Shown piece after piece: positions 36,038 through 63,602 of a stretch of 64,000 bases of DNA (the first letter of the stretch is position 1; every line of letters starts with the position of its first letter). The notes under the pieces are model-generated. The model was not told the DNA's origin, searched no databases, and saw only the letters and a program-made list of their open reading frames with translations. The position numbers and the translations under genes were made by a program. This DNA is from Richelia intracellularis HH01 (GTDB taxonomy: Bacteria; Cyanobacteriota; Cyanobacteriia; Cyanobacteriales; Nostocaceae), in NCBI RefSeq assembly GCF_000350105.1, contig NZ_CAIY01000044.1:248001-312000 (forward strand), given 5' to 3'.

Positions 36038-37747
36038 TTGAATTATGAAAGTGCAAAAAAGTGAAAATTATGAGGCTATTGTATCAGTTATGCCACAAAC
36101 ATCAACCATAAATATTGGAGTTCCCTTGACACATGTACATCACTAATATAATGAAATAAGTCTCTATTCTTTAACAGTTGCAATCACCACGCTGCTAAAC
36201 CTACCATATTAGATAACATTATATAGGTAAAAATAAACAAAATATAACAGAGCTGTTTGCCAACCACTCATAGTTTAAATTTATATATTAAAACCTATTC
36301 TTTTGAGGTTTATTTCATGATTTTATCAAGTAAAACTTCCATAGCTTCCATAGTTTGTAGGCAGTAGATATTTAATAAGTTTTACTTTTATCTAATCATA
36401 ATTTCATAAATTGTGTTGAATTTACTATAACTTTTTACCTTAGTTATGATACAAAGATATTAATGTAGAAGTAATTATATTGCAAGTTATTATTTTATGG
36501 AGTCACACATAAATTATTCAAATTAATGGAATTAACAATATTGATGTAATTTTAATACATAGGAATTACATCAATATTTAATTGCTCTAAAATTCAGTGT
36601 TATAAATTATTTGAATCTTCATAAGCAATTGCAGCAATTTAAATCCAGTAATAGCTATATCGAATTGCTATCAAATTAACTATAAATCATCTAATGACTC
36701 AAAATTAAATGATTATATAGCTAAAGTTGTACTTGCCTTTTTATGATTAATTTACTCCATTATCTCAGGATTGAATAGGTTTAAGTTCTGTTGATATATA
36801 AAACTTAATTAAATTAAATCTCACCTCTATTTTTAGAGTTTGGTGATTAGTCAAAGATAATTTGATAACGATATATTCTTGTATAATTATTACTGCAAAC
36901 TATATAAATATTCTATGCTAAAATCAAGCTATAATTAGTCCCTAGATAAGAGTTTTAGCTACCATCAAAAGTATTTTAAATAGGATAATTTCCTAGTATA
37001 ATCAGAAGCTTATCTGAGAATGATATTCGCAGATAAATTGCCTTATATTTCATTATTTAAATATCACGATACTTGCACCTATAACCACATAAACCTGGAT
37101 TTGAATAAAACACAAATAAGTAATAATATAAGACTCCATACTAGCAAAAGATCTAACTAAATATCTACTCTCTACGATGTCACTTTAAATTACTCCAATA
37201 ATAGAGGAAAATGCCCAATTAAATCTGAATCTTACGACAAATTACCCTCAGTAGTTACAGCTCGATATTGAACTATATTGGCACTTTCACTAAATTATGG
37301 CTTTGCTTGAGGAAGCTTAAGTAAAAATTGGCAAGTAATTGAATTAATAAGTTACTAGTTAAAATAGAAACTTAGAATAATTTATTATTACCAAAAATTT
37401 AACCAGTAGCAATTTTGAATTGACTCAAGACTTACACAAATAGCCTCACCTGATTAAGTACCAAATATTCTGTAAATATTTATTTATATACTTCAAGCCT
37501 TAATCATATTAGATAAATCTCCTTGAAATACTAAAATTAATTCCAAATTAAAGTTATAAATAAAAATGGTAAGAACACATAGAAACATTAACTAATTTGG
37601 CAAAAAAGTATAGTACTGATTTTTATGACATGAGATCAGATAAAAATATTATGTAAATTTATAACCAGATAATATACAAATCTAATAAATTTGGAAGATT
37701 TCACTTCCCAATAGTAAATCAGAGACAATTATAAAGAGAACTGGGGA
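36038..37747. other. AT-rich spacer with hairpin and weak coding-like segment
   Basis: A 15-bp-arm hairpin lies at 36537-36578... its arms are AATATTGATGTAATT and complement. On the + strand 37189-37320 a frame with two stops reads like protein (ITPIIEENAQLNLNLTTNYP; IMALLEEA). I cannot identify it. Nothing else was seen. Confidence 0.4.
36537..36578. repeat. Hairpin with 15-bp arms
   Basis: AATATTGATGTAATT (36537-36551) pairs perfectly with AATTACATCAATATT (36564-36578) around a 12-nt loop. It is 500 bases upstream of coaX and not at a gene end. Function unknown. Confidence 0.6.
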
Positions 37748-37818
37748 AGCGGGTGAGGGGAATCGAACCCCTATCATTAGCTTGGAAGGCTAGGGTTTTA
37801 CCACTAAACTACACCCGC
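37748..37818 (-). tRNA. tRNA-Gly(UCC)
   Basis: A 71-nt cloverleaf on the minus strand. The acceptor stem GCGGGTG/CACCCGC is perfect with U as discriminator base, usual for bacterial tRNA-Gly. The D-arm is GTTTAGTGGTAAAAC, the anticodon loop CTTCCAA (anticodon UCC), and the T-arm AGGGG-TTCGATT-CCCCT. The first pair of the anticodon stem (27-43) is C-A, a mismatch. No CCA is encoded. It is isolated between two long spacers. Confidence 0.95.
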
Positions 37819-39796
37819 AAATTTACACTTCAGAAAGTATAACACAGATTTATAGTACTTGAAAAGCACTAATACTTGCCAATATAGTTATGATGATCAC
37901 TTTGATTACAATTATTGAGAATTAAATTGCTGGCTTATTTCAACTTTCTACTGTTATTGTCATATAAAAACTATACAATTATGGACCTGTCATAATAACT
38001 CTTGACTACGAAAATAGCTGTTTATAAGATTTAGAAGTTGTATACCTCCAGATAGCTCATAATTATTGAGGTGCATTTTGCAATTTTTAGTAGAGCTGTT
38101 GATTCATCAAGAGAGAATACAAGTTTAAGGGATGAGTGGGAAAGTGCTAAGCACTAAGAGGAGAAAACCCTGAATACGAAGAGGTTCATATTGATATGAA
38201 CATGATTACCCTAAATGGGGTTTAATTCCCTATTCATAATATTACATAATTACATAACTATAATGTTATTTTCTACTCTAAATTGCTTTTTGACCAAGGT
38301 ATAAAACCTATATTGATTAAACTTAACTAGTCAAATTCATATATGCATAGATTATAAGATACTTTATAATTACTTTGGATAAATTAGATTAATTTAGATT
38401 AGAATAGTACAAAATGAAGATATATTTATAAGCAATTAGTAAAATTATATGAAAGTAGTGAGGTATTATTTTGAAGCAAGACAAGCCTTGATAAAGGTAA
38501 CCGAAAAAGTCACATAACTATGAATATATAAGAGTAAACCATATAATATTCTAATTAAAGTGATTCTATAGCTAGCTAATCTAATTCTTAGAATGGTAGG
38601 TAAATAGCATCTTTATCCCAGAAAAATATTAAGTTAACTTAACAAAAAAATGATAATAATCAGGAATTTAACTCACTTATATATATTTTATAAGAATATT
38701 TCTCATAGAGTAGAAAATCGTGTTATTACTAAGACAAACCACCATGATATAATGAGGAGATTAAATGCTAATTGTGATGTCAATTATAAGTAGATTATGA
38801 GACGTTGCATTTTGTGACAGATTAAGAAAAGAAAATTAACAAACAGAGAGGCTAATAAACTATTAATTTAAAGTCTGATTTATTTTCCCATAAACCCATT
38901 GAAATTATTTAAATAGTTCCTACATCAAGTTCCACTCAATTCATAACTTAATTTCAAATCTAAGCCAGAAAGTTTATTAGGAATAATTATATGTTTTCTT
39001 CTATAGTTAAGTCCCTTTCATAAAATATTAGCTATTTCTCTTAAGATAGAATATCTAATTCCATGTTAATACTTTGGCTCTAGTTCCTAAATATAAAACC
39101 TTCCTATGATTTTTGTAATTGTCTATATATCTGAAAGTTAAAATTGCATTTTATTGATTGTATAATTATTATGGAAGAGTATTTAATTATATTCTAAGTA
39201 AATACAAAAAATAATACAAATATATGTACTACCAACTATAATTATATCTAATTTATTTATTTTATTAGCCTTAAAAGGCTATAGTTGTTAACTTGGAAAT
39301 AGTAAGCAGAATTTTATTAATATTTATTTTACTAGAGCTAGAAATATTGCTTGAAGCTAATACAGCTATGTTAGCTAAAAAACATAGTTTAAATAAATTT
39401 ATTCAAAAATAACTATATTTTAAGATTTATATGTTTTTATCATCATAGAATATTTGTTATATTTAAGCAATAATTGTTATTTTTTATGTTCGTTATAGAG
39501 TTTAAGTAAAATACTAATTAAATATACTATTAAAATTTATATAGAAGTTATGCGGTAGTTATAGAATGCTAAATTGAGAAAGTTTTTACTTATAAATTCT
39601 TCCAATTATATAGAATTAATATGATAATTACTCCCTAGATAAGTTTCTAGTAAGATTTGAATTAGTCTAAAATTTTGGTTGTTTAGTTTATGCAAAAAAT
39701 TTTGGTATTTTATGGACTTCCTTATCACACTTAGCTCTTAACTTATAAAATAGAGATAGACTTTATTAATATTTATATAGTTAAGGCTAACTAATC
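37819..39796. other. 2-kb AT-rich spacer
   Basis: No gene, recognisable remnant or long hairpin was identified. It must hold the promoters of the tRNA (right side) and of the ABC ATPase gene, but no clear boxes were seen. Confidence 0.4.
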
Positions 39797-40977: not shown

Positions 40978-41873
40978 ATGATTAGAACGACTGCACCTCC
41001 AAAATCAGATATTAACTGGCAAGAAATAGCATCGCCCCAAGGTTATGCTGATACAGCACCCAATTTCATCGCCGAGTTAATCCAAGAAACCCTAGCATTA
41101 ACGTATCGCTTGTTCATTCAATTACGACGTCGTCCCTCTACCTTACTAGCGGGAATTATTCAACCAATAATGTGGTTAGTCCTATTTGGTGCTTTATTTC
41201 AAAACGCACCCAAGGGGATTTTTGGGTCTATGATAAGTTATAATCATTTTCTCGGGGCAGGTATAATTGTTTTCACTGCATTTGCAGGGGCATTAAATGC
41301 TGGGTTGCCAGTGATGTTTGATAGAGAATTTGGCTTTTTAAATCGTTTGCTTGTAGCTCCTTTGGCATCAAGATTTTCTATTGTTTTGTCTTCTGCCATT
41401 TTTATAATTAGTCAAAGTTTACTCCAAGCTGCTGTTATTGTAAGTGCTGCAGCACTTTTAGGTGCTGGCCTACCGAATGTATCAGGTTTAGGCGTAATAG
41501 CTTTAATTATTTTCTTTTGGCTTTAGGTGTTACTTCACTCAGTTTGGGCTTGGCTTTTACTCTCCCTGGACACATCGAGTTGATTGCAGTAATTTTTGTG
41601 ACTAATTTGCCACTTTTGTTTGCCAGCACAGCCTTAGCCCCATTATCTTTTATGCCCCAGTGGTTGCAAATTATAGCTACTCTTAATCCCCTTAGTTATG
41701 CCATTGAAACTATTCGCTATCTTTATATTCATAGCAATTGGCAATTTAACAATATCGTCATGCATGCTTTTTGGGGTGATGTAACTTTTGGTGGAGCACT
41801 ACTGGTACTAGCTGGTTTTGCTTTGGTATCATTGATAGTAATTCAACCACAACTACGGCGTACTTTAGCCTGA
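40978..41873 (+). pseudogene. ABC-2 permease split by one-base frameshift
   Basis: Two adjoining frames together form one ABC-2 exporter permease of about 300 residues, the normal length. Frame one (40978-41526, 182 codons) covers the N-terminal cytoplasmic part and four membrane helices to LIIFFWL and a stop. Frame two continues from about 41517 with LALGVTSLSLGLAF and ends in LRRTLA. The join lies in TTCTTTTGG at 41513-41520; one more T would restore FFLALGV. Everything else in both halves is well conserved, so either the mutation is recent, a sequencing error is present, or the frame is bypassed. It partners the ATPase just upstream. Confidence 0.8.
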
Positions 41874-54025: not shown

Positions 54026-54234
54026 ATTTTTTTCAGATACAGATTATTTCCTTTATCTAAAAAGTATGGCACACCTTGATTTAAAACCATATATTTGTAT
54101 TATTACACCTCAGTGATAAGCAATGAGTTTATCAAAACTTAGAATAAGGCTAAATACAATTAAAATTTACTTATTTATATCAACAAATATGCATTTTTAA
54201 TGTGAAATAGTATTGCTGGATTGTTAAATGTATC

Positions 54235-55299
54235 TTATCTTTGAGATGGTGGTGGTTCATCAAAGAAATTATTCACTCTCTCACACTCAATACCCGCAAT
54301 CTTAACGCGATTTGATGCTATTGGCTCTACTCGACAAGAACGTTTGAGATAGTACTCATATTGTTTATAAACTGCCATTCGTGGATTTTTGTATGTTTTA
54401 GAAGTAGGACCACTCCAAATGCTGAGTAAATCAAGTTTATAAGTATCAGGATTATTGGGGTTTATGTTATCCACACGTGCTTCTATCCTCCATAGGTCTT
54501 TCTCCTTGTAGTCTCCTAATTCTTTAACAATTAATTCATTACCTAATTTACTTATCTCAGAATTTCGACTCCCCGTATTTTTCAACAGTATTTCTACTTG
54601 ATACCAGGGTCTTTTATCTATTCTATCGATAATAGTTAGTGCTACTTTATTTAAAATAATAGTCCCATTGTTAGGAGCCTTATTAGGGCCTGAATTTTCA
54701 ATAGGGTATAGTTCTTTTACTAAAAAACTATTATCAATATCATCATTCAATAAACTAGGGTAATCCTTAACCCAACTATCAACTAAAAAATAAACTTGTA
54801 GCCAGCAACTGACTAATATTGAGCCAGCTATTAAAACAATAATTTTTTGACGTGCTTCTGGTTTGGGTATTTGGGTACTAACATTAGTCCCCGTACCCTG
54901 AAAAAATTCTGGTATTGCTGTAATCATTGCTGATATGGTAGGCCATAGTACAAATGATACTGGGTTAAATATATTTTGCTCATCACCAAAAGCAAATACA
55001 CTTACTAATCCTCCTGTGACTAATGCTCCTACAGGCATAACAGTTCCAGGTATCAATACTGGCTTATCAGTAGTATACCAAGAAGTACCTAATATTAAAA
55101 ATAACCAACCGCAAAGGGCAATAATGTTTTTAACAATGATTCCCTGTGCCCAATATGACATAAGTAAGGAAAATATACTCAAATAAATTAGTGTTTGCCA
55201 TGAGTAAATATCTTGTGGTAGTAGCAATTTTTGGGCACTGCCTAATACGTCACTGATAAATTTGAAGGTAGTCTTAAGAAAATCTGTAATTATTTCCAT
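54235..55299 (-). CDS. fraD: Filament integrity protein FraD
   Basis: In Anabaena FraD is a septal-junction protein needed for cell-cell molecular exchange and long filaments. The 354-residue product begins with several membrane helices (about 35-190, e.g. TLIYLSIFSLLMSYWAQGI) and ends in a long soluble, presumably periplasmic domain (from about 200). This fits FraD architecture: five spans plus a C-terminal extracytoplasmic part. It starts 9 bases after fraC, whose stop overlaps the ribosome-site region (TTAGGTATGG), so the two are translated from one mRNA. The third gene of the Anabaena operon, fraE, does not follow; ispH converges instead. Confidence 0.85.
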   Translation of the reverse strand: MEIITDFLKTTFKFISDVLGSAQKLLLPQDIYSWQTLIYLSIFSLLMSYWAQGIIVKNIIALCGWLFLILGTSWYTTDKPVLIPGTVMPVGALVTGGLVSVFAFGDEQNIFNPVSFVLWPTISAMITAIPEFFQGTGTNVSTQIPKPEARQKIIVLIAGSILVSCWLQVYFLVDSWVKDYPSLLNDDIDNSFLVKELYPIENSGPNKAPNNGTIILNKVALTIIDRIDKRPWYQVEILLKNTGSRNSEISKLGNELIVKELGDYKEKDLWRIEARVDNINPNNPDTYKLDLLSIWSGPTSKTYKNPRMAVYKQYEYYLKRSCRVEPIASNRVKIAGIECERVNNFFDEPPPSQR

Positions 55300-55308
55300 T
55301 GTCCATAC

Positions 55309-55872
55309 CTAATTTGTAAATGTTACAGACAAGCAAAGTGCTAGAACAATTGTGATTGCGCTATAACTTAACGAGTTAGCCATTAATACGCTAGTTGCAA
55401 TGCTTGTACCTTGTAATGTATTTAAGTTATATCTCCTAAGAGAACGTCTTTGAGGGATAACTGCTTCCTCTGCAGGCTTTTCCTTATCTGACTTATTCCA
55501 GATAAATAACAATAATTTTAAAGTCATAGTTTTGAATAAAAAGGTTACACAAAATATAATAAAAGCAATAAATAATATTAGGTTATATGTGCTTGATAAC
55601 TGAAAGTGATTAAAAAAAACGTAGCTAAGAAGTTCTGACTTATATTTAGGGGATAAATAGGGTTCTACAAAGAAAAAGATTAACCAGCCCGATATATTAG
55701 CAAAGATATTGATGGACGTGGCATAAAAAACGCTGCTTTTTTGGTCAAATTTTAACCGTGTTTTTAAAACACATGCTTCTATCGGTATTGCAAGTATGAG
55801 GAATAAGAAATCAAACAAAATGATTCCTAGGGGCATAATTGGGGAAATATCAAATGGGAGGAATGTTTGCAT
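55309..55872 (-). CDS. fraC: Filament integrity protein FraC
   Basis: A 187-residue membrane protein that acts with FraD at septa between cells of heterocyst-forming filaments. Helices near 12-34, 47-69 and 97-118 match the three-span layout of FraC; the C-terminal 30 residues are also hydrophobic. Start MQTFLPFDISPIMPLG. Identification rests on size, topology and its partnership with the FraD-like gene 9 bases downstream. It marks this organism as a filamentous heterocyst former. The frame is intact. Confidence 0.85.
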   Translation of the reverse strand: MQTFLPFDISPIMPLGIILFDFLFLILAIPIEACVLKTRLKFDQKSSVFYATSINIFANISGWLIFFFVEPYLSPKYKSELLSYVFFNHFQLSSTYNLILFIAFIIFCVTFLFKTMTLKLLLFIWNKSDKEKPAEEAVIPQRRSLRRYNLNTLQGTSIATSVLMANSLSYSAITIVLALCLSVTFTN

Positions 55873-56557: not shown

Positions 56558-57568
56558 ATGCTATTGACAACATTGCACACTAAAATCCACCAAACTATTC
56601 GTACCCGCAATTTATTTAGTAAAAATCAAAGATTATTGATAGCTGTTTCTGGGGGACAAGATTCACTGTGTTTGGTAAAGATACTGTTAGATTTACAACC
56701 TAAATGGGCATGGGATTTAGGTATTGCCCATTGTGATCATTGTTGGCGTTCAGACTCCCAGGCTAATGCGCAACATGTGGAAAAAATAGCTAAAAGCTGG
56801 CACTTATCTTTTTATCTTGCTACTACTAAACAAGAAATAAAAACGGAAGCTAATGCACGTGATTGGCGTTACCATGAATTAACCCTAATTGCTCAAACTC
56901 ATAATTATGATTGCGTAGTTACAGGGCATACAGCTAGTGATCGCTCAGAAACTCTATTGTACAATCTTATACGTGGTAGTGGTATGGATGGGATGCAAGC
57001 TTTAGCCTGGCAAAGACCACTCAATGATACTATTTGCCTCGTACGTCCTTTATTAGGAATCTCCCGTTCAACTACAGAAAAATTTTGCCAACACTTAAAA
57101 TTACCGATTTGGGAAGATAGTACCAACCAAGACGTAAAATATGCACGTAATCGCATACGTCAAGAACTATTACCTCATTTGAAAACCAGTTTTAATCCTA
57201 ACATTGAATTTACACTCGCACAAACTGCAGAAATATTACAAGCGGAAGTCGAGTATTTACAGCAAACTAGCAAAGACTTGTATCAAAAAGTAGTATTTGT
57301 ATCAAAACTATCCCCTACTTCCTGGAAAATCTATCGTTCCCAACTGCAAAACACGCCAATGGCCTTAAAAAGACGTGTTATGCGCCACGTTCTACAGAAA
57401 GCATTACCATGTTCACCCAATTTTGAACATATAGAAAAACTCACAGCATTAATTACTGCTCCTAATCTTTCTCAGACAGATCCTTTTCCTGGAGGAGCAA
57501 TTGCTAAAGTTCAAGGTGATTGGATTTACTTGGTGAACTCACTTGGACGTCTTTCGACAATTGAGTAA
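56558..57568 (+). CDS. tilS: tRNA(Ile)-lysidine synthetase
   Basis: Attaches lysine to C34 of tRNA-Ile(CAU), so that it reads AUA and not AUG. The PP-loop motif SGGQDS is at 31-36, followed by HCDHCWRSDS (near 68), the TGHTASDRSETLLYNLIRG region (about 126-144) and a C-terminal domain. At 336 residues it is the normal cyanobacterial length. It is essential, which explains its intact frame next to the ruined operon. The organism's AT-rich codon use makes AUA common. Confidence 0.95.
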   Translation: MLLTTLHTKIHQTIRTRNLFSKNQRLLIAVSGGQDSLCLVKILLDLQPKWAWDLGIAHCDHCWRSDSQANAQHVEKIAKSWHLSFYLATTKQEIKTEANARDWRYHELTLIAQTHNYDCVVTGHTASDRSETLLYNLIRGSGMDGMQALAWQRPLNDTICLVRPLLGISRSTTEKFCQHLKLPIWEDSTNQDVKYARNRIRQELLPHLKTSFNPNIEFTLAQTAEILQAEVEYLQQTSKDLYQKVVFVSKLSPTSWKIYRSQLQNTPMALKRRVMRHVLQKALPCSPNFEHIEKLTALITAPNLSQTDPFPGGAIAKVQGDWIYLVNSLGRLSTIE

Positions 57569-58116
57569 TTATAGCCCTGAGTTATAATTTATTTCTTCAG
57601 CAAGGTTCTCAAGGATTGAGATAATCCCTCAAATCCCTGATTTTAAATGTTTAAAACTTCTTAATAAAAATTGTATATTTTGCCATCTTAATTACCATGA
57701 CGGAACTTGTTTGGTTCATAGTTGGTTCTAAAGTTTATTAGACACTCAAAAATTCAATTTTATTTATAGATTTATCCATCTTGCCTTTTATGATTGTAGA
57801 CAGAGAAAACTTTTTAGGAACTCTAAGGCATAATTATTATCGCTATAAGTTATTGAACCATAAGTTATTGAACTAATTACTTGGTCATGATACTAAAAAG
57901 TATCTTAAATATTCATCCTGTAAATAATCTTTTACAAGATGAATAGAAATATTATGAGACTGGTCAAGAAGGGAAAAATACAGGAACATATAAAGGTAAA
58001 ATTCCATATATCAGACGATTATTAAGATAATATGGCTAATGCCTGGCATAAGGATAAATGAGTATTTTTAATACATATAGTAATTTGATGTAAGTAAACC
58101 AGAATGGGTCGACAGA
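57569..58116. other. Region between tilS and the ruined operon
   Basis: No intact gene. At about 57788-57870 a + frame reads PFMIVDRENFLGTLRHN, resembling the end of a receiver domain, possibly an hmpA-like remnant. A 13-bp tandem duplication (57846-57858 and 57861-57873) and a hairpin (57911-57944) follow. Confidence 0.4.
57911..57944. terminator. Hairpin with one mismatch
   Basis: ATTCATCCTGTAAA (57911-57924) pairs with TTTACAAGATGAAT (57931-57944) with one mismatch. It lies 340 bases after tilS. Possible terminator. Confidence 0.45.
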
Positions 58117-58522
58117 TATTATTTAGGTGCAGTTTTGATTGTAGAAGATAATATTGTGCAAAGGCTAATAATTACATATTATGCGAAAGCAATTAGGTTA
58201 ATATTAACAGTAACCTACTAGTAACCTGTTTATTATAATGTATAGTTAGCTTTAGAGGTGATTCGAAGTAACATCCATGGCTTAATGAGTACTATGTATG
58301 TTTTTATCACTCATACAGATGCTTATGAAGTCTGTCCTATCGTCCCCATAAAATAATATCCGAATATCAATAATTTTCCAGTGGTTATACGTTTTTCAAT
58401 GTGATGATAATTCTGACCAATACTGGGGTGTTAAATAGAGTATAAATACTGGATTATATATAGCCAAATCATCTGAGCCAACTGAACTGCTTGGAACAAT
58501 TAAACAGATCTTGTGGGGGTAA
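58117..58522 (+). pseudogene. Ruined CheY/PilH-type response regulator (hmpB-like)
   Basis: Receiver-domain remnant read across frames: VLIVEDNIVQRLIITYYAK with the phosphate-pocket Asp pair, then ALEVIRSN, YEVCPIVPIK, FPVVIRF, YWGVK, a stop, INTGLYIAKSSEPTELLGTI and KQIL ending at the stop near 58520. These match a stand-alone single-domain regulator (about 120 residues) with the usual AYIAKPF...ELIGTIKQLL ending. The conserved Lys after AYIA is kept, but the DIVMP phosphorylation site is not recognisable. At least two frameshifts and two stops. First traceable gene of the ruined chemosensory operon. Confidence 0.8.
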
Positions 58523-58653
58523 GAATAAAATTTAAGATGACTCATAAAATAGAATTTCTGGGAAATGTTATACAAAATCAATTCCGTCATTAAGTATAAA
58601 TAGAAAATCCTAAAAGCCAGCTGCATCTGAGACTCTAAATTTATTCATATTAG

Positions 58654-59065
58654 GAGTTTGCTTTGGCAAATGGACTAAAGGAAGTTGCAGAAATAAGTAG
58701 GGATAGGACTATACATATTCCCAATGATTCTCCTTTGATTCTGGTTACTATAAACTTGCAGGGCTAAGTAGTGTGTATAGCTGATTTAGGAATCTTTCTG
58801 GGGGTAGTAATTTCATTGAATACTGATCAATATAAAATACCAGTGATTATTGTGGAAGATTAAAACGTAGTAATTGGTTGAGCTATAGATAAAATTGTTG
58901 GTACTGAATGGCTTGACATACATGTAATAGCTAGCAGCTAGTAATATACCATATACTATAGCTTCGTTTTTATGTGGAGAATGGTTATTCTTCAAAAATC
59001 AATATTTGTAATTACCCAATTCAACAGCTATTTTGCATAGTAATAGGTGGACAGAATTAAGGTAA
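58654..59065 (+). pseudogene. Ruined CheW-like coupling protein (hmpC-like)
   Basis: Reads EFALANGLKEVAEI, LILVTINLQG, a stop, VVCIADLGIFLGVV, IPVIIVED, a stop, IDKIVGT, then after a frameshift IPYTIASFLCGEWLFFKNQY and LPNSTAILHSNRWTELR. This is the order of a CheW/PilI domain: a beta-barrel with VDLxxLLG-type segment, then a C-terminal strand. It begins 130 bases after the ruined regulator and ends about 20 bases before the ruined MCP. Three or more stops and one frameshift. CheW would couple the receptor to the kinase. Confidence 0.78.
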
Positions 59066-59079
59066 GGGAATAGCAGATA

Positions 59080-61650
59080 TAATCAGGTATAAACAACTAC
59101 TATGAAAAAGCTTATGAGCAAGCATATAAGGCCTATGTACAGTTAAATTATGACGAGGCTGCGAGTCTCATAGACTAGGGTATTAGGTATAGTACCAAAA
59201 AATTCTAAAATTCACCTGTTGAGGGGCAAAACCCATTATCATTATATCTTGCAGTAGTTTGATATTGCTTAATCCAAGTACGGAAGAGTTATACAGCTCG
59301 GTAACGAACAGGAAATAATAGATTTAGCTCAAAATGGTTTATAAAGAATTAATAGGTGTCAAAGACAGTAATTAATAAACCCAAAACCATATTTGAAGTG
59401 CGAAATATCGATAGTTATTACACCTCGAGACAAATTATCTGCACATGATAACGTGATGCGGGGGTTTGCAAGTATTAATCATGATAACGAAGATTTATCT
59501 TCTATTCCATTTGATTTAAGTATTAATAATATCCTATTAGAAACATCTAGTATCTTTAAGACTTTAGAAGGTGATAATAATTCCGATGAAGAAATGGCAA
59601 GAGCTAGTAAAAATTTATCTGGTTTATTGACTCATGAAAGTGAGAATTTCTACTCAGAAACAAAGAACCTATATTTACAGGAAGTTCAGGGGGGAGATTT
59701 GTTAGGAAATCAGTGTATAGAAGATAGTCTGGAGGATGAGAATCTATTAATTGAGTTATTAGATATTAGTCAATCCTGGAAGGACTGCAGGTAAAAGACT
59801 CATGACAGGAGTGCTTTTTATTTATATGAGGAGGATAAACAGAACAAAACTAGCTTATCCCATCTTCAAGATATTAGCATGGATAGCAATGACAGTTTTG
59901 ACTTCTAAGTATTTGAATCTGCATTCGGCCCTGAGGATTCGAATAATGATGAGGATACAAGTAACCCAATCAGTTTTGGTCTGTCTCGAGGTGAAAATAT
60001 TGGGTTTCTAGACGAATTTGATGAATTTGATGATTTTAAGGACGTCTCTAGATTTTAATGTTCCTAAGAATAATTGTGAATTATCCTTGCACTCTGCTTT
60101 TCTTGGATTTTCAAGAAATTTCTACAATAGCAATTAAGGAAATGTGTTTGGTGGCCAAGAGCATAATCTTGATCATAAGTTATTCAGCATTAATGGTTTT
60201 CAATAGGGATTGCTATTATGTGTCAGTTACAGCCTACAAAAGATTGGACCAAAAAATGCCAAACAAGGGTTATTTGTAACTTTAGAGAACACCTTTTTAT
60301 ACAATAAACCACGGTTTATTGGTGGGCCAGTATGTGTTGCATCAACTATATTTGTTGCATCTGTAAGCCTTGCTGTAACATCTTTTATTTCTCTAGAGCA
60401 AAGGCAATCTGTCAAAAATACAGGTTGGGCAATGGCTTCAGCTGCAGATATTGCTGGTGCTATGATTAGTGGGATTTTTAGCAGTCTTATTTTGAGGTGA
60501 ATTCGACATACTACTCAAGATCTACAATCACATTTTTATGCTTTAAGTCATGAGAATATAGGCGTAACAGCCACTATTTATTCAGGAGATGAACTTGGGC
60601 AACTAGCTAGTAGCTGTAATAAAATTTCACCTACTACCAATGAAGCTAATCGTAAAGCCCAAAAGCAGGAAGAAGCCAAGGAAAACTTACAAAATCAGTT
60701 AATTAGACTATCAGATGATGTGGAAGTTGTGGCTAGAGGAGATTTAACTGTATAAGCAGAGGTAACAGCAGATATCTTAGGAGTTGTTACTAATGGTTTT
60801 CATTTAACTATTCAAAATTTACGTTATATTGCTATACAAGTAAAAATTAATACTTATGAACTACCTGAGGACCCGATCAGTTCTGAAACTTTGGTTAGAT
60901 CTTTATCTAGTAATGCTTTATGTCAAGTAGAGGAATTAGCAACTACTCTTAATTCTGTACAAATTATGACTAATTCAATACAAAGAGGGACATAAGCTGC
61001 TTTCCCTGATGCTTCTATGCCTCATGATGCCAACAAAATTGCTAAACAAGGTTGGAGGTAGTGGAAAAGACTATGGCAGGAATTTTAGAAATATGGGAAA
61101 TGGTAACTGAAATAATCAGGAAGGTGAAAAGATTAGCAGTATCCTCTCAGGAAATTTCTATTATTGTGGCCTTGATTTCCCAAATTGCTTCTAGAATTAA
61201 TCTATTGGCATTAAGATCATTGAGGCTACCAGAGGGAAAAGCCGTCAAAGTACTTGTATTATAATAGATGAAGTATTTCAGCTAGCTGATAAATCGGCCA
61301 ATTCTCTTAAATTAATTGAACATATCGCGATTCGTATCCAGGGTGAGACTAAATCCATAATGACTGTTATAGAAGAAGAAAAATATCAGGTGAATAAGGG
61401 TATTAAACTTGCCGAGGAGGCGCAGCAGTCACTTGATAATATTGTTGGCTACACGAATAATATTGACCAATTGGTATATTCCATTTCCTATGACACATTA
61501 AGTTAGAGAGAGACCTCCCACATAATCCAATTAATGCAATCGATGGAATTAAATGCACGAGAAATATCACATGAAGCAGAAAGGGTATCTAGGACCTTGC
61601 AAAATTTGGTGATTGTATCTCGGGATTTAATTTCTTCTATGGAAAATTAA
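59080..61650 (+). pseudogene. Ruined methyl-accepting chemotaxis protein, PilJ type (hmpD-like)
   Basis: Complete ghost of a cyanobacterial MCP. It starts with TPR-like YEKAYEQAYKAYVQLNYDEA, then VIQLGNEQEIIDLAQNG; an acidic linker stays open for 133 codons (59393-59794). A membrane helix (VCVASTIFVASVSLAVTSFI) and second helix (SAADIAGAMISGIFSSLIL) follow. HAMP-like parts come next (YSGDELGQLASS; LSDDVEVVARGDLTV). The signalling domain includes SLSSNALCQVEELATTLNSV, SSQEISIIVALISQIASRIN and ends VVSRDLISSMEN at 61650. The highly conserved hairpin tip is damaged (LALRSLRLPEGKAVK). Multiple frameshifts and stops occur throughout. In hormogonia such proteins direct type IV pilus motility. Confidence 0.88.
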
Positions 61651-61865
61651 TAACTAGGCATGTATAAAACCCAATAAAAGCTTGTAGATAATTCACATGA
61701 TTTAGATGTAAAAATCGTTGTACCTATGTTTACACATCTAGAATAAAATTTTAGAATTCAGAAGTTAACGATTGTGTCGTTAGAATCATTAGAATTCATT
61801 AATATGAGTTAGAAAACGACTATTTTAAAATTTTAAATTCATAAATCTTTCTTATGATCAAGATA

Positions 61866-63602
61866 TGATCAAAACAAAGGAATACAAGTTATTTTATTGA
61901 GTAGGCCAGAGAGTATATAAGCTATTATTGAATAAGCAATTTTGGCTCTTGAGAGTGACTTGAAGAAATTAGAACCATTGAGTAATTTATTTCAGAAAAA
62001 TTATTTCCTCAAAAAAACATGGGGGATATAAAATTTTCCTATGCAGTAAGTATTACATTGAATAATACTCATTACCTGGAAAATTATTTGTAAGTTACTA
62101 AGGAGTAAAAAGTTCAGGTAGATAAGAATCCAGAAACTTTATTAATATGGTTGATATTTTAAAAGCTTTATTACACACTCTACAAGTGCTATTTACATTA
62201 ACAAACAAAGTCGTAAATTACCTTACATCCGAAGCTGATATATATTTTAAGTATTTTTATACACATCTTGATAGTTTACCACAATAATATTGTGGTAAAC
62301 TGGTTAATAATAGGGTTAATATTTTCACTAATAATACCAACTCTAATATTTATAGATTATTTATTTTCACTATTTATAGGGGCAAATATCTGCAAAATCC
62401 GATTTTAAAGACATTAATGGAAGTATTAAAGTTATTCAAGTAATTAAGCAATATTATAAAGTAGATAATGCTTAGAAGATTATTGCTAAAAACTATCAGA
62501 ATTAGGAGAGAAGCTTGACCTGGTAAGTTGGCCTGCTTTATGCCTGGTAGCAAGGTCTACGACTACTAATTCAAAAAAAACTACTCATTATTAGATCTTA
62601 ATTATACCATAAGAGGCCCAATACTAAATACTTATGAATTAATATTTCTCCTAACTTTCATACAAACGAAAGATCTAGAATTTTTGGTACTTATGGGGTA
62701 AGTATGGATGTTATTCATAGCAAAAATAATATAATTAGAGGTTTAATTAATGTTAATTCTATTATTAGAAAATAATCCAACATAACTATTTGTTTACCAA
62801 TAAGTTAAAGTATCTATAAAGCTCTGTTATGTTTACATGAAAAAGAGCACATTACTTCTCCTGTCAATACATTATAAGAAATATTAGATTTTCGTATAAA
62901 TCAAATTCAATATAATTTAGATGGACAAATATTTCTTATATGGAATAAAAAAATAATATTTAAGCCTCTAAAAGACTTACTAATATTTAATCATCAACTA
63001 AGTTATGCTAACAAAGTTTATAGGTGTTATCTTGATAAGATCATTATGAGTTCTGCTAATAATTTCTTAGCTTTAGGAGTAGATAAAGTTGTTAATGAAC
63101 ACAATAAATTATCATTAGATAATTTGCCAGAGATTATAGATATATTTCAATAAGGACTCCGAGCAGAAATAAACTGTGTTAATAATTTTTAGGAAGGACT
63201 AAGTTATCCCTTATATAATTAGAAATTACAACTATCAAGGGGTACTCCATAATCTATTACTTATCATAGATAACTCTATTCCTATGAAGTAAGTACTATC
63301 TTTAAGTTATAGTAATATCAGCCTGAAATAAGTATACAATTATCATAATAATTGGGGTTAATAACTCTATTTTACCCCTAGATTTAAGTTTTCTATAATA
63401 TCGAAATACATATATGCAATGAATTATGTATAATGTCTAGTATCTAAAGAAGTTTAAAATTGGGAATATTGCTACCCTAACTTTCAGAGGTATATGTAAT
63501 ATTGAATGAATAGTAATTAAACTCGCTTCCAGTAGCTATTTTACCAAGCAATTTTTGTCTCTATCTACAGAATTAGTGCTAGTTTTATTTGATTGGCTAT
63601 GA
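61866..63602 (+). pseudogene. Ruined CheA hybrid kinase (hmpE/pilL-like)
   Basis: Domain order of a CheA hybrid is still readable. Hpt region: SYFIE, then AILALESDLKKLEPLSNLFQ (61900s). Middle: MVDILKALLHTLQVLFTLTN (62140s). ATPase end: YGVSMDVIHSKNNIIRGLIN (62697 on). CheW-like domain: ITICLPIS, SIYKALLCLHEKEHITSPVN, LALGVDKVVNEHNKL. Receiver: LLIIDNSIPMK (63258 on), then IATLTFRGICN and ASSSYFTKQFL near the end at 63602. The His of the Hpt (HTLKGG type) is not recognisable. The remnant is about 580 codons, shorter than intact hybrids, so internal deletions are likely. Numerous stops and frameshifts. Last gene of the operon. Confidence 0.82.
62273..62301. repeat. Perfect hairpin inside the ruined cheA
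   Basis: AGTTTACCACAAT (62273-62285) pairs perfectly with ATTGTGGTAAACT (62289-62301) around a 3-nt loop. It falls between the middle and ATPase parts of the cheA ghost, where an intact gene would not need such a stem. Confidence 0.65.

Follow-up and report, generated by a model that had tools for sequence, protein, structure and literature searches.

Remnant of a decayed hmp operon in the reduced genome of the symbiont Richelia intracellularis HH01

Next to an intact tilS, the genome of Richelia intracellularis HH01 carries a chain of pseudogenes that is very probably the remnant of an hmp operon (hmpF-hmpA-hmpB-hmpC-hmpD-hmpE), non-functional and left over after selection on filament motility stopped in this lineage. 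HH01 is a cytoplasmic symbiont of Hemiaulus with a 3.2 Mb genome from which GOGAT is missing (PMC10299089 cites both). The window that we analyzed is a stretch of 64,000 bases (bases 248001-312000 of contig 47) of the draft HH01 genome, which comprises 3,240,816 bases in 90 contigs. For comparison we relied on two relatives: the sister genome from the same genus, Richelia intracellularis CBZS01, which we take to be strain RC01, from Rhizosolenia, and the close relative Calothrix rhizosoleniae SC01. In RC01, hmpD (898 aa) and hmpE (1464 aa) are uninterrupted, as are hmpF-A-B-C-D in SC01, where hmpE is spread over two contigs. The pseudogenes were located by tblastn with the proteins of the relatives and then aligned with a purpose-written frameshift-aware aligner. 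The locus is composed of the following parts:

56558..57568, + strand: tilS, intact, 336 aa, with Pfam ATP_bind_3 and TilS domains; 73% amino acid identity to the SC01 orthologue
57569..57659, no strand: former hmpF/hmpA site, deleted here; relatives hold hmpF (586 aa, opposite strand) and most of hmpA
57660..57909, + strand: hmpA 3' stub, receiver domain, residues ~306-382 of 393
58123..58519, + strand: hmpB pseudogene, single response-regulator receiver, 121 aa; 41% amino acid identity; 3 stops, 3 frameshifts; tblastn E-value ~1e-9
58503..59050, + strand: hmpC pseudogene, CheW-like adaptor; 51% amino acid identity; 8 stops, 3 frameshifts
59089..61644, + strand: hmpD pseudogene, repeat-like N terminus, HAMP and MCP signalling domain; 12 stops, 5 frameshifts
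61872..62582, + strand: hmpE pseudogene, N-terminal part, from Hpt onward, residues 6-233 of RC01; 44% amino acid identity; 9 stops, 6 frameshifts
62583..62597, no strand: hmpE deletion junction, residues 234-1088 gone (855 residues, ~2.6 kb)
62598..63557, + strand: hmpE pseudogene, C-terminal part, end of HATPase_c, CheW and receiver, residues 1089-1444 of 1464; 45% amino acid identity; 9 stops, 10 frameshifts

Overall, approximately 41 in-frame stops and 27 frameshifts interrupt the sequence between 57660 and 63557, and its open reading frames are not functional. The frameshift-aware scores of hmpB, hmpC, hmpD and hmpE are 154, 391, 1875 and 445, compared to 25, 33, 41 and 44 in the reverse-strand controls. 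As originally predicted, tblastn places HmpB, HmpC, HmpD and HmpE on the plus strand in the order receiver, CheW, MCP and hybrid CheA, and no transposon was seen within the pseudogenes. Two other parts of the prediction had to be amended. Every pseudogene is interrupted many times, as described, but they are not all readable end to end: in hmpE the alignment passes from residue 233 (62582) directly to residue 1089 (62598), and the hole takes out H-kinase_dim together with the initial half of HATPase_c, according to the domains mapped on the intact relative. Similarly, the four genes from hmpB to hmpE are present, but the remnant begins further upstream, with an hmpA stub that had been missed. 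This stub scores 71 with the SC01 query, and 60 dinucleotide shuffles never exceed 57. With N. punctiforme, a more distant query, the match is not significant on its own. The gap of ~180 bp between it and hmpB matches the spacing in SC01. A search for an hmpF remnant at the locus gave a best score of 47, which is not significant when compared to shuffles scoring up to 55.

The identity of the locus is supported by gene order, domain composition and sequence similarity. N. punctiforme NIES-2108 and the inspected relatives share one arrangement, namely tilS, hmpF (opposite strand), hmpA, hmpB, hmpC, hmpD and hmpE, and tilS is a conserved neighbour of hmp in SC01 and in the other Nostocaceae inspected. 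The intact proteins of the relatives are composed of DUF4388 and receiver (HmpA), receiver (HmpB), CheW (HmpC), HAMP and MCP signal (HmpD), and Hpt, H-kinase_dim, HATPase_c, CheW and receiver (HmpE). The hmpD pseudogene shares 54.5% amino acid identity with RC01 over 846 codons and 51.5% with the HmpD of SC01. It scores 1875 against RC01, 1670 against SC01, 1376 against N. punctiforme and 1295 against genome G015, which we presume to be the Azolla cyanobiont (N. azollae), and only 129-432 against five paralogous MCPs. This more than fourfold difference, together with the linkage to tilS, settles the orthology of HmpD and bears out the original assignment of the blocks to a single hmp locus rather than to unlinked fragments. 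Chemotaxis-like systems of the pix, ptx or tax type have domain types in common with hmp, as is generally known. It is nevertheless extremely unlikely that the pseudogenes derive from one of them, given the scores of HmpD over its MCP paralogs, a gene order equal to that of NIES-2108 and a tilS linkage conserved in many Nostocaceae. In gene identities, order, tilS linkage and receiver/CheW/MCP/hybrid CheA composition, the remnant resembles the locus of N. punctiforme, whose hmpA-F genes (Risser 2014) are listed in PMC6495340. It differs in that every gene of HH01 is broken or missing and in that the divergent upstream hmpF is absent, both at the locus and in the genome. In N. punctiforme, the hmp system, itself chemotaxis-like, acts in motile hormogonia, where it places HmpF and thereby steers the type IV pili (PMC12288463; genes in PMC6495340).

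We then looked at the rest of the genome, bearing in mind that the completeness of the HH01 draft is estimated at ~89% and gene absences are thus not absolute. The only match to PF01584 (CheW) in the HH01 genome is the hmpC pseudogene, with its stops, and the only two MCP-signal matches both lie in the hmpD pseudogene. PilB, PilT, PilC, PilM, the secretin PilQ, HmpF and DUF4388/HmpA returned no match in the HH01 genome, the single weak PF00437 hit being a ClpC-like protein. The genome-wide search for other che and pil clusters therefore returned no intact CheW, MCP, HmpF, PilB, PilT, PilC, PilM or secretin. The relatives do have these pilus, HmpF and DUF4388 genes, except for PilB, PilT1 and PilC, which we did not find in RC01. 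So many unlinked absences are unlikely to be assembly gaps, though single ones could be. Further erosion is visible at the motility chaperone gene dnaK1. Cyanobacteria carry this gene upstream of pilBTC, and it connects pili with the secretion of polysaccharide (PMC12288463). In HH01, the dnaK1 adjoining the intact grpE (contig C35, 2900-5200 of the stretch examined) is a pseudogene with 18 stops and 21 frameshifts. The gene is intact in RC01 and SC01, and in SC01 it adjoins pilBTC. No pilB, pilT or pilC pseudogenes were detectable at E < 0.01 beside grpE, in a site that is partly covered as C35 begins ~2 kb from grpE, and no pilM-Q pseudogenes at the same threshold beside the cobD-like gene of contig C73.

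To measure the loss of constraint, we counted the substitutions on the HH01 branch by codon position, restricting the count to sites identical in RC01 and SC01. In the intact tilS, grpE and cobD, the values at positions 1, 2 and 3 are 0.07-0.12, 0.03-0.07 and 0.22-0.29. They rise to 0.26, 0.19 and 0.34 in hmpD, 0.27, 0.19 and 0.32 in hmpC, 0.40, 0.28 and 0.39 in hmpE, and 0.43, 0.32 and 0.37 in the dnaK1 pseudogene. The same pattern is found when base composition is held apart: at G/C sites, positions 1 and 2 show 0.07-0.16 in the intact genes, 0.31-0.36 in hmpC-hmpD, 0.50-0.51 in hmpE and 0.49-0.62 in dnaK1. Codon-position constraint has thus been lost partially in hmpC-hmpD and nearly fully in hmpE and dnaK1, whose pattern resembles that of simulated neutral decay. 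Since positions 1 and 2 of the pseudogenes diverged 2-6 times above the intact genes, the decay is real and not the result of sequencing error. The assembly is a draft in many contigs, and stops and frameshifts could in principle have been introduced by sequencing or assembly into an intact operon. However, the probability of this is practically negligible: the divergence consists mostly of base substitutions whose excess is measured against intact genes of the same assembly, the adjoining tilS carries no disruptions, and neither the 2.6 kb deletion nor the loss of hmpF can come from base calling. Short proteins with some new function might instead still be produced from parts of the locus, for example from the frames of 133 and 96 codons in hmpD, a gene that decayed less than hmpE and retains long in-frame stretches. 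We consider this highly unlikely, as frames of this length are expected while few stops have accrued and positions 1 and 2 throughout hmpD are far above those of constrained genes. Most likely, the hmp remnant now does nothing.

The comparison with RC01, where hmpD-hmpE are intact, indicates that the decay of the hmp locus came after the split from this sister. The loss had originally been described as recent and simultaneous. It can be called recent only in the sense that it followed the split from RC01, and simultaneity does not agree with our data: hmpE and dnaK1 are near-neutral and bear more stops and frameshifts per codon, hmpC-hmpD keep the mark of long constraint, and no remains of the pil genes were detectable next to their former neighbours. 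With dnaK1 as the fully neutral reference, the neutral share of the branch comes to roughly half for hmpD and about nine tenths for hmpE. These estimates are rough and rely on a single sister, a single outgroup and much diverged third positions. Some features would fit a death of the whole locus at one moment, with the differences in decay being noise. The loss of any operon gene would stop selection on all of them, and hmpC and hmpD agree at positions 1 and 2 (44/190 and 317/1396, respectively, P-value = 0.93). Against this, at the same positions hmpE and dnaK1 differ from hmpD (P-value = 2e-5 and 1e-12, respectively, Fisher tests), and hmpE also differs from hmpD in stops (P-value = 0.02) and frameshifts (P-value = 0.001, Fisher tests). 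Moreover, simulations in which the four genes had decayed neutrally for the same time recovered equal rates, and the method is therefore not the source of the difference between hmpD and hmpE. Death at one moment is thus unlikely and a single-event loss is not supported, with regional differences in mutation rate or in prior constraint as possible contributors. The stops of hmpC exceed what its codon-position pattern would suggest. An ordered dismantling that started with the pilus motor, dnaK1, HmpA and the HmpE kinase, with the HmpC-HmpD adaptor/receptor pair still selected for much of the branch, is a long shot. If true, the HmpC-HmpD receptor array would have served the diatom symbiont for something besides filament movement.

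Possible intermediate stages of such decay are seen in other Nostocaceae. In RC01 (contig 117, 1414-5578 of the stretch examined), hmpA has 3 stops and 2 frameshifts and lies ~2.9 kb from hmpF, compared to ~0.5 kb in SC01; by eye, transposase-like scraps are visible in these ~2.9 kb. RC01 and SC01 bear the closest relatives of the HH01 remnant, the former with a broken hmpA and the latter without interruptions from hmpF to hmpD. The presumed Azolla symbiont is, like HH01, an obligate symbiont with a broken hmpA (3 stops). Unlike HH01, it has open hmpB-hmpE and keeps the pil set, with pilB, pilT, pilC, pilM and pilQ present and no stops in the matched domains. The hormogonia of the Azolla cyanobiont are reported to be motile (PMC12362246). 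Since hmpA is broken in RC01 as well as in this presumed Azolla symbiont, its loss may be an early or tolerated step. In RC01, PilM, PilN, PilO and PilQ are present (contigs 735 and 787). Its grpE contig stops right at the expected pilBTC site, and on the other flank the contig has no pilC within 9 kb; the missing pilB, pilT1 and pilC may reflect real loss or an assembly gap.

At a wider scale, HmpD is found at full strength (E-value below 1e-200) in 182 of 193 Nostocaceae genomes, and its loss is therefore uncommon but not unique. The 11 genomes without it include HH01 and genomes of 3.8-4.5 Mb from genera g14 and g67, and some of those other than HH01 are small genomes of unproven endosymbiont status. 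The loss might accordingly stem from a planktonic existence without gliding instead of from living inside a host, and one of the 11, G014, keeps PilC and a secretin. We regard this explanation as unlikely, since the diatom-associated RC01 and SC01 keep an intact hmpD and the diatom associate with the smallest genome loses everything, although this is a single contrast. Inheritance through the host is the plausible circumstance that may have made motility dispensable. The original prediction had placed the loss after commitment to a host, which is likewise plausible but goes further than the comparison allows, as parts of hmpB-hmpE persist beside a broken hmpA in RC01 and the presumed fern symbiont, and full HmpD is also missing from a few other Nostocaceae.

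On the most probable account, filament motility ceased to be under selection in the HH01 lineage. The genes for the pilus motor and alignment were lost, deletion removed hmpF and the greater part of hmpA, the CheA kinase gene hmpE was deprived of its catalytic centre, and hmpB-hmpD accumulated stops and frameshifts under an AT-biased drift. The hmp pathway cannot operate now that its kinase centre, HmpF and the pilus motor are all missing. Because the hmp cluster is broken and the pilus motor genes are gone, we infer that HH01 has most likely lost filament motility and makes no motile hormogonia. Nitrogen-fixing Nostocales usually enter a new host via motile hormogonia. The dead hmp operon and the missing pilus motor thus predict strict inheritance of the cytoplasmic symbiont from diatom to diatom. 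RC01, which presumably lives between the wall and the membrane of its host, would represent a half-way stage, with hmpA broken and hmpD-hmpE intact. The genomes of HH01, RC01 and SC01 may therefore allow a gene-by-gene dating of when a symbiont can no longer leave, with an order of loss that is testable through the intermediates. In its reduced genome and lost pathways, HH01 is similar to other nitrogen-fixing cyanobacterial endosymbionts (PMC10299089). A search of the available literature on hormogonium and pilus loss in Richelia returned no direct report of hmp or pil loss in HH01. The locus is a clean, well-resolved case of a familiar process, the erosion of motility genes in a reduced endosymbiont.

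Other genes of the window are preserved. As originally noted, those for nitrogen storage (cyanophycin synthetase and cyanophycinase) and cell-cell communication (FraC and FraD) are intact, the septal junction genes fraC and fraD lying at 54026-55872. In Anabaena, fraE comes after fraC-fraD. It does not adjoin them in the window, where only 212 bp extend up to ispH. The collections of plasmids and phages contain no DNA nearly identical to the window. Frames that stay open for roughly 120 codons or longer cover only ~44% of it, and further pseudogenes probably lie in its extended AT-rich gaps, for example at 36038-39796. A drrB-like ABC permease at 40978-41873 appears to be divided between two open frames that overlap (40978-41526 and 41517-41873), suggestive of a recent frameshift.
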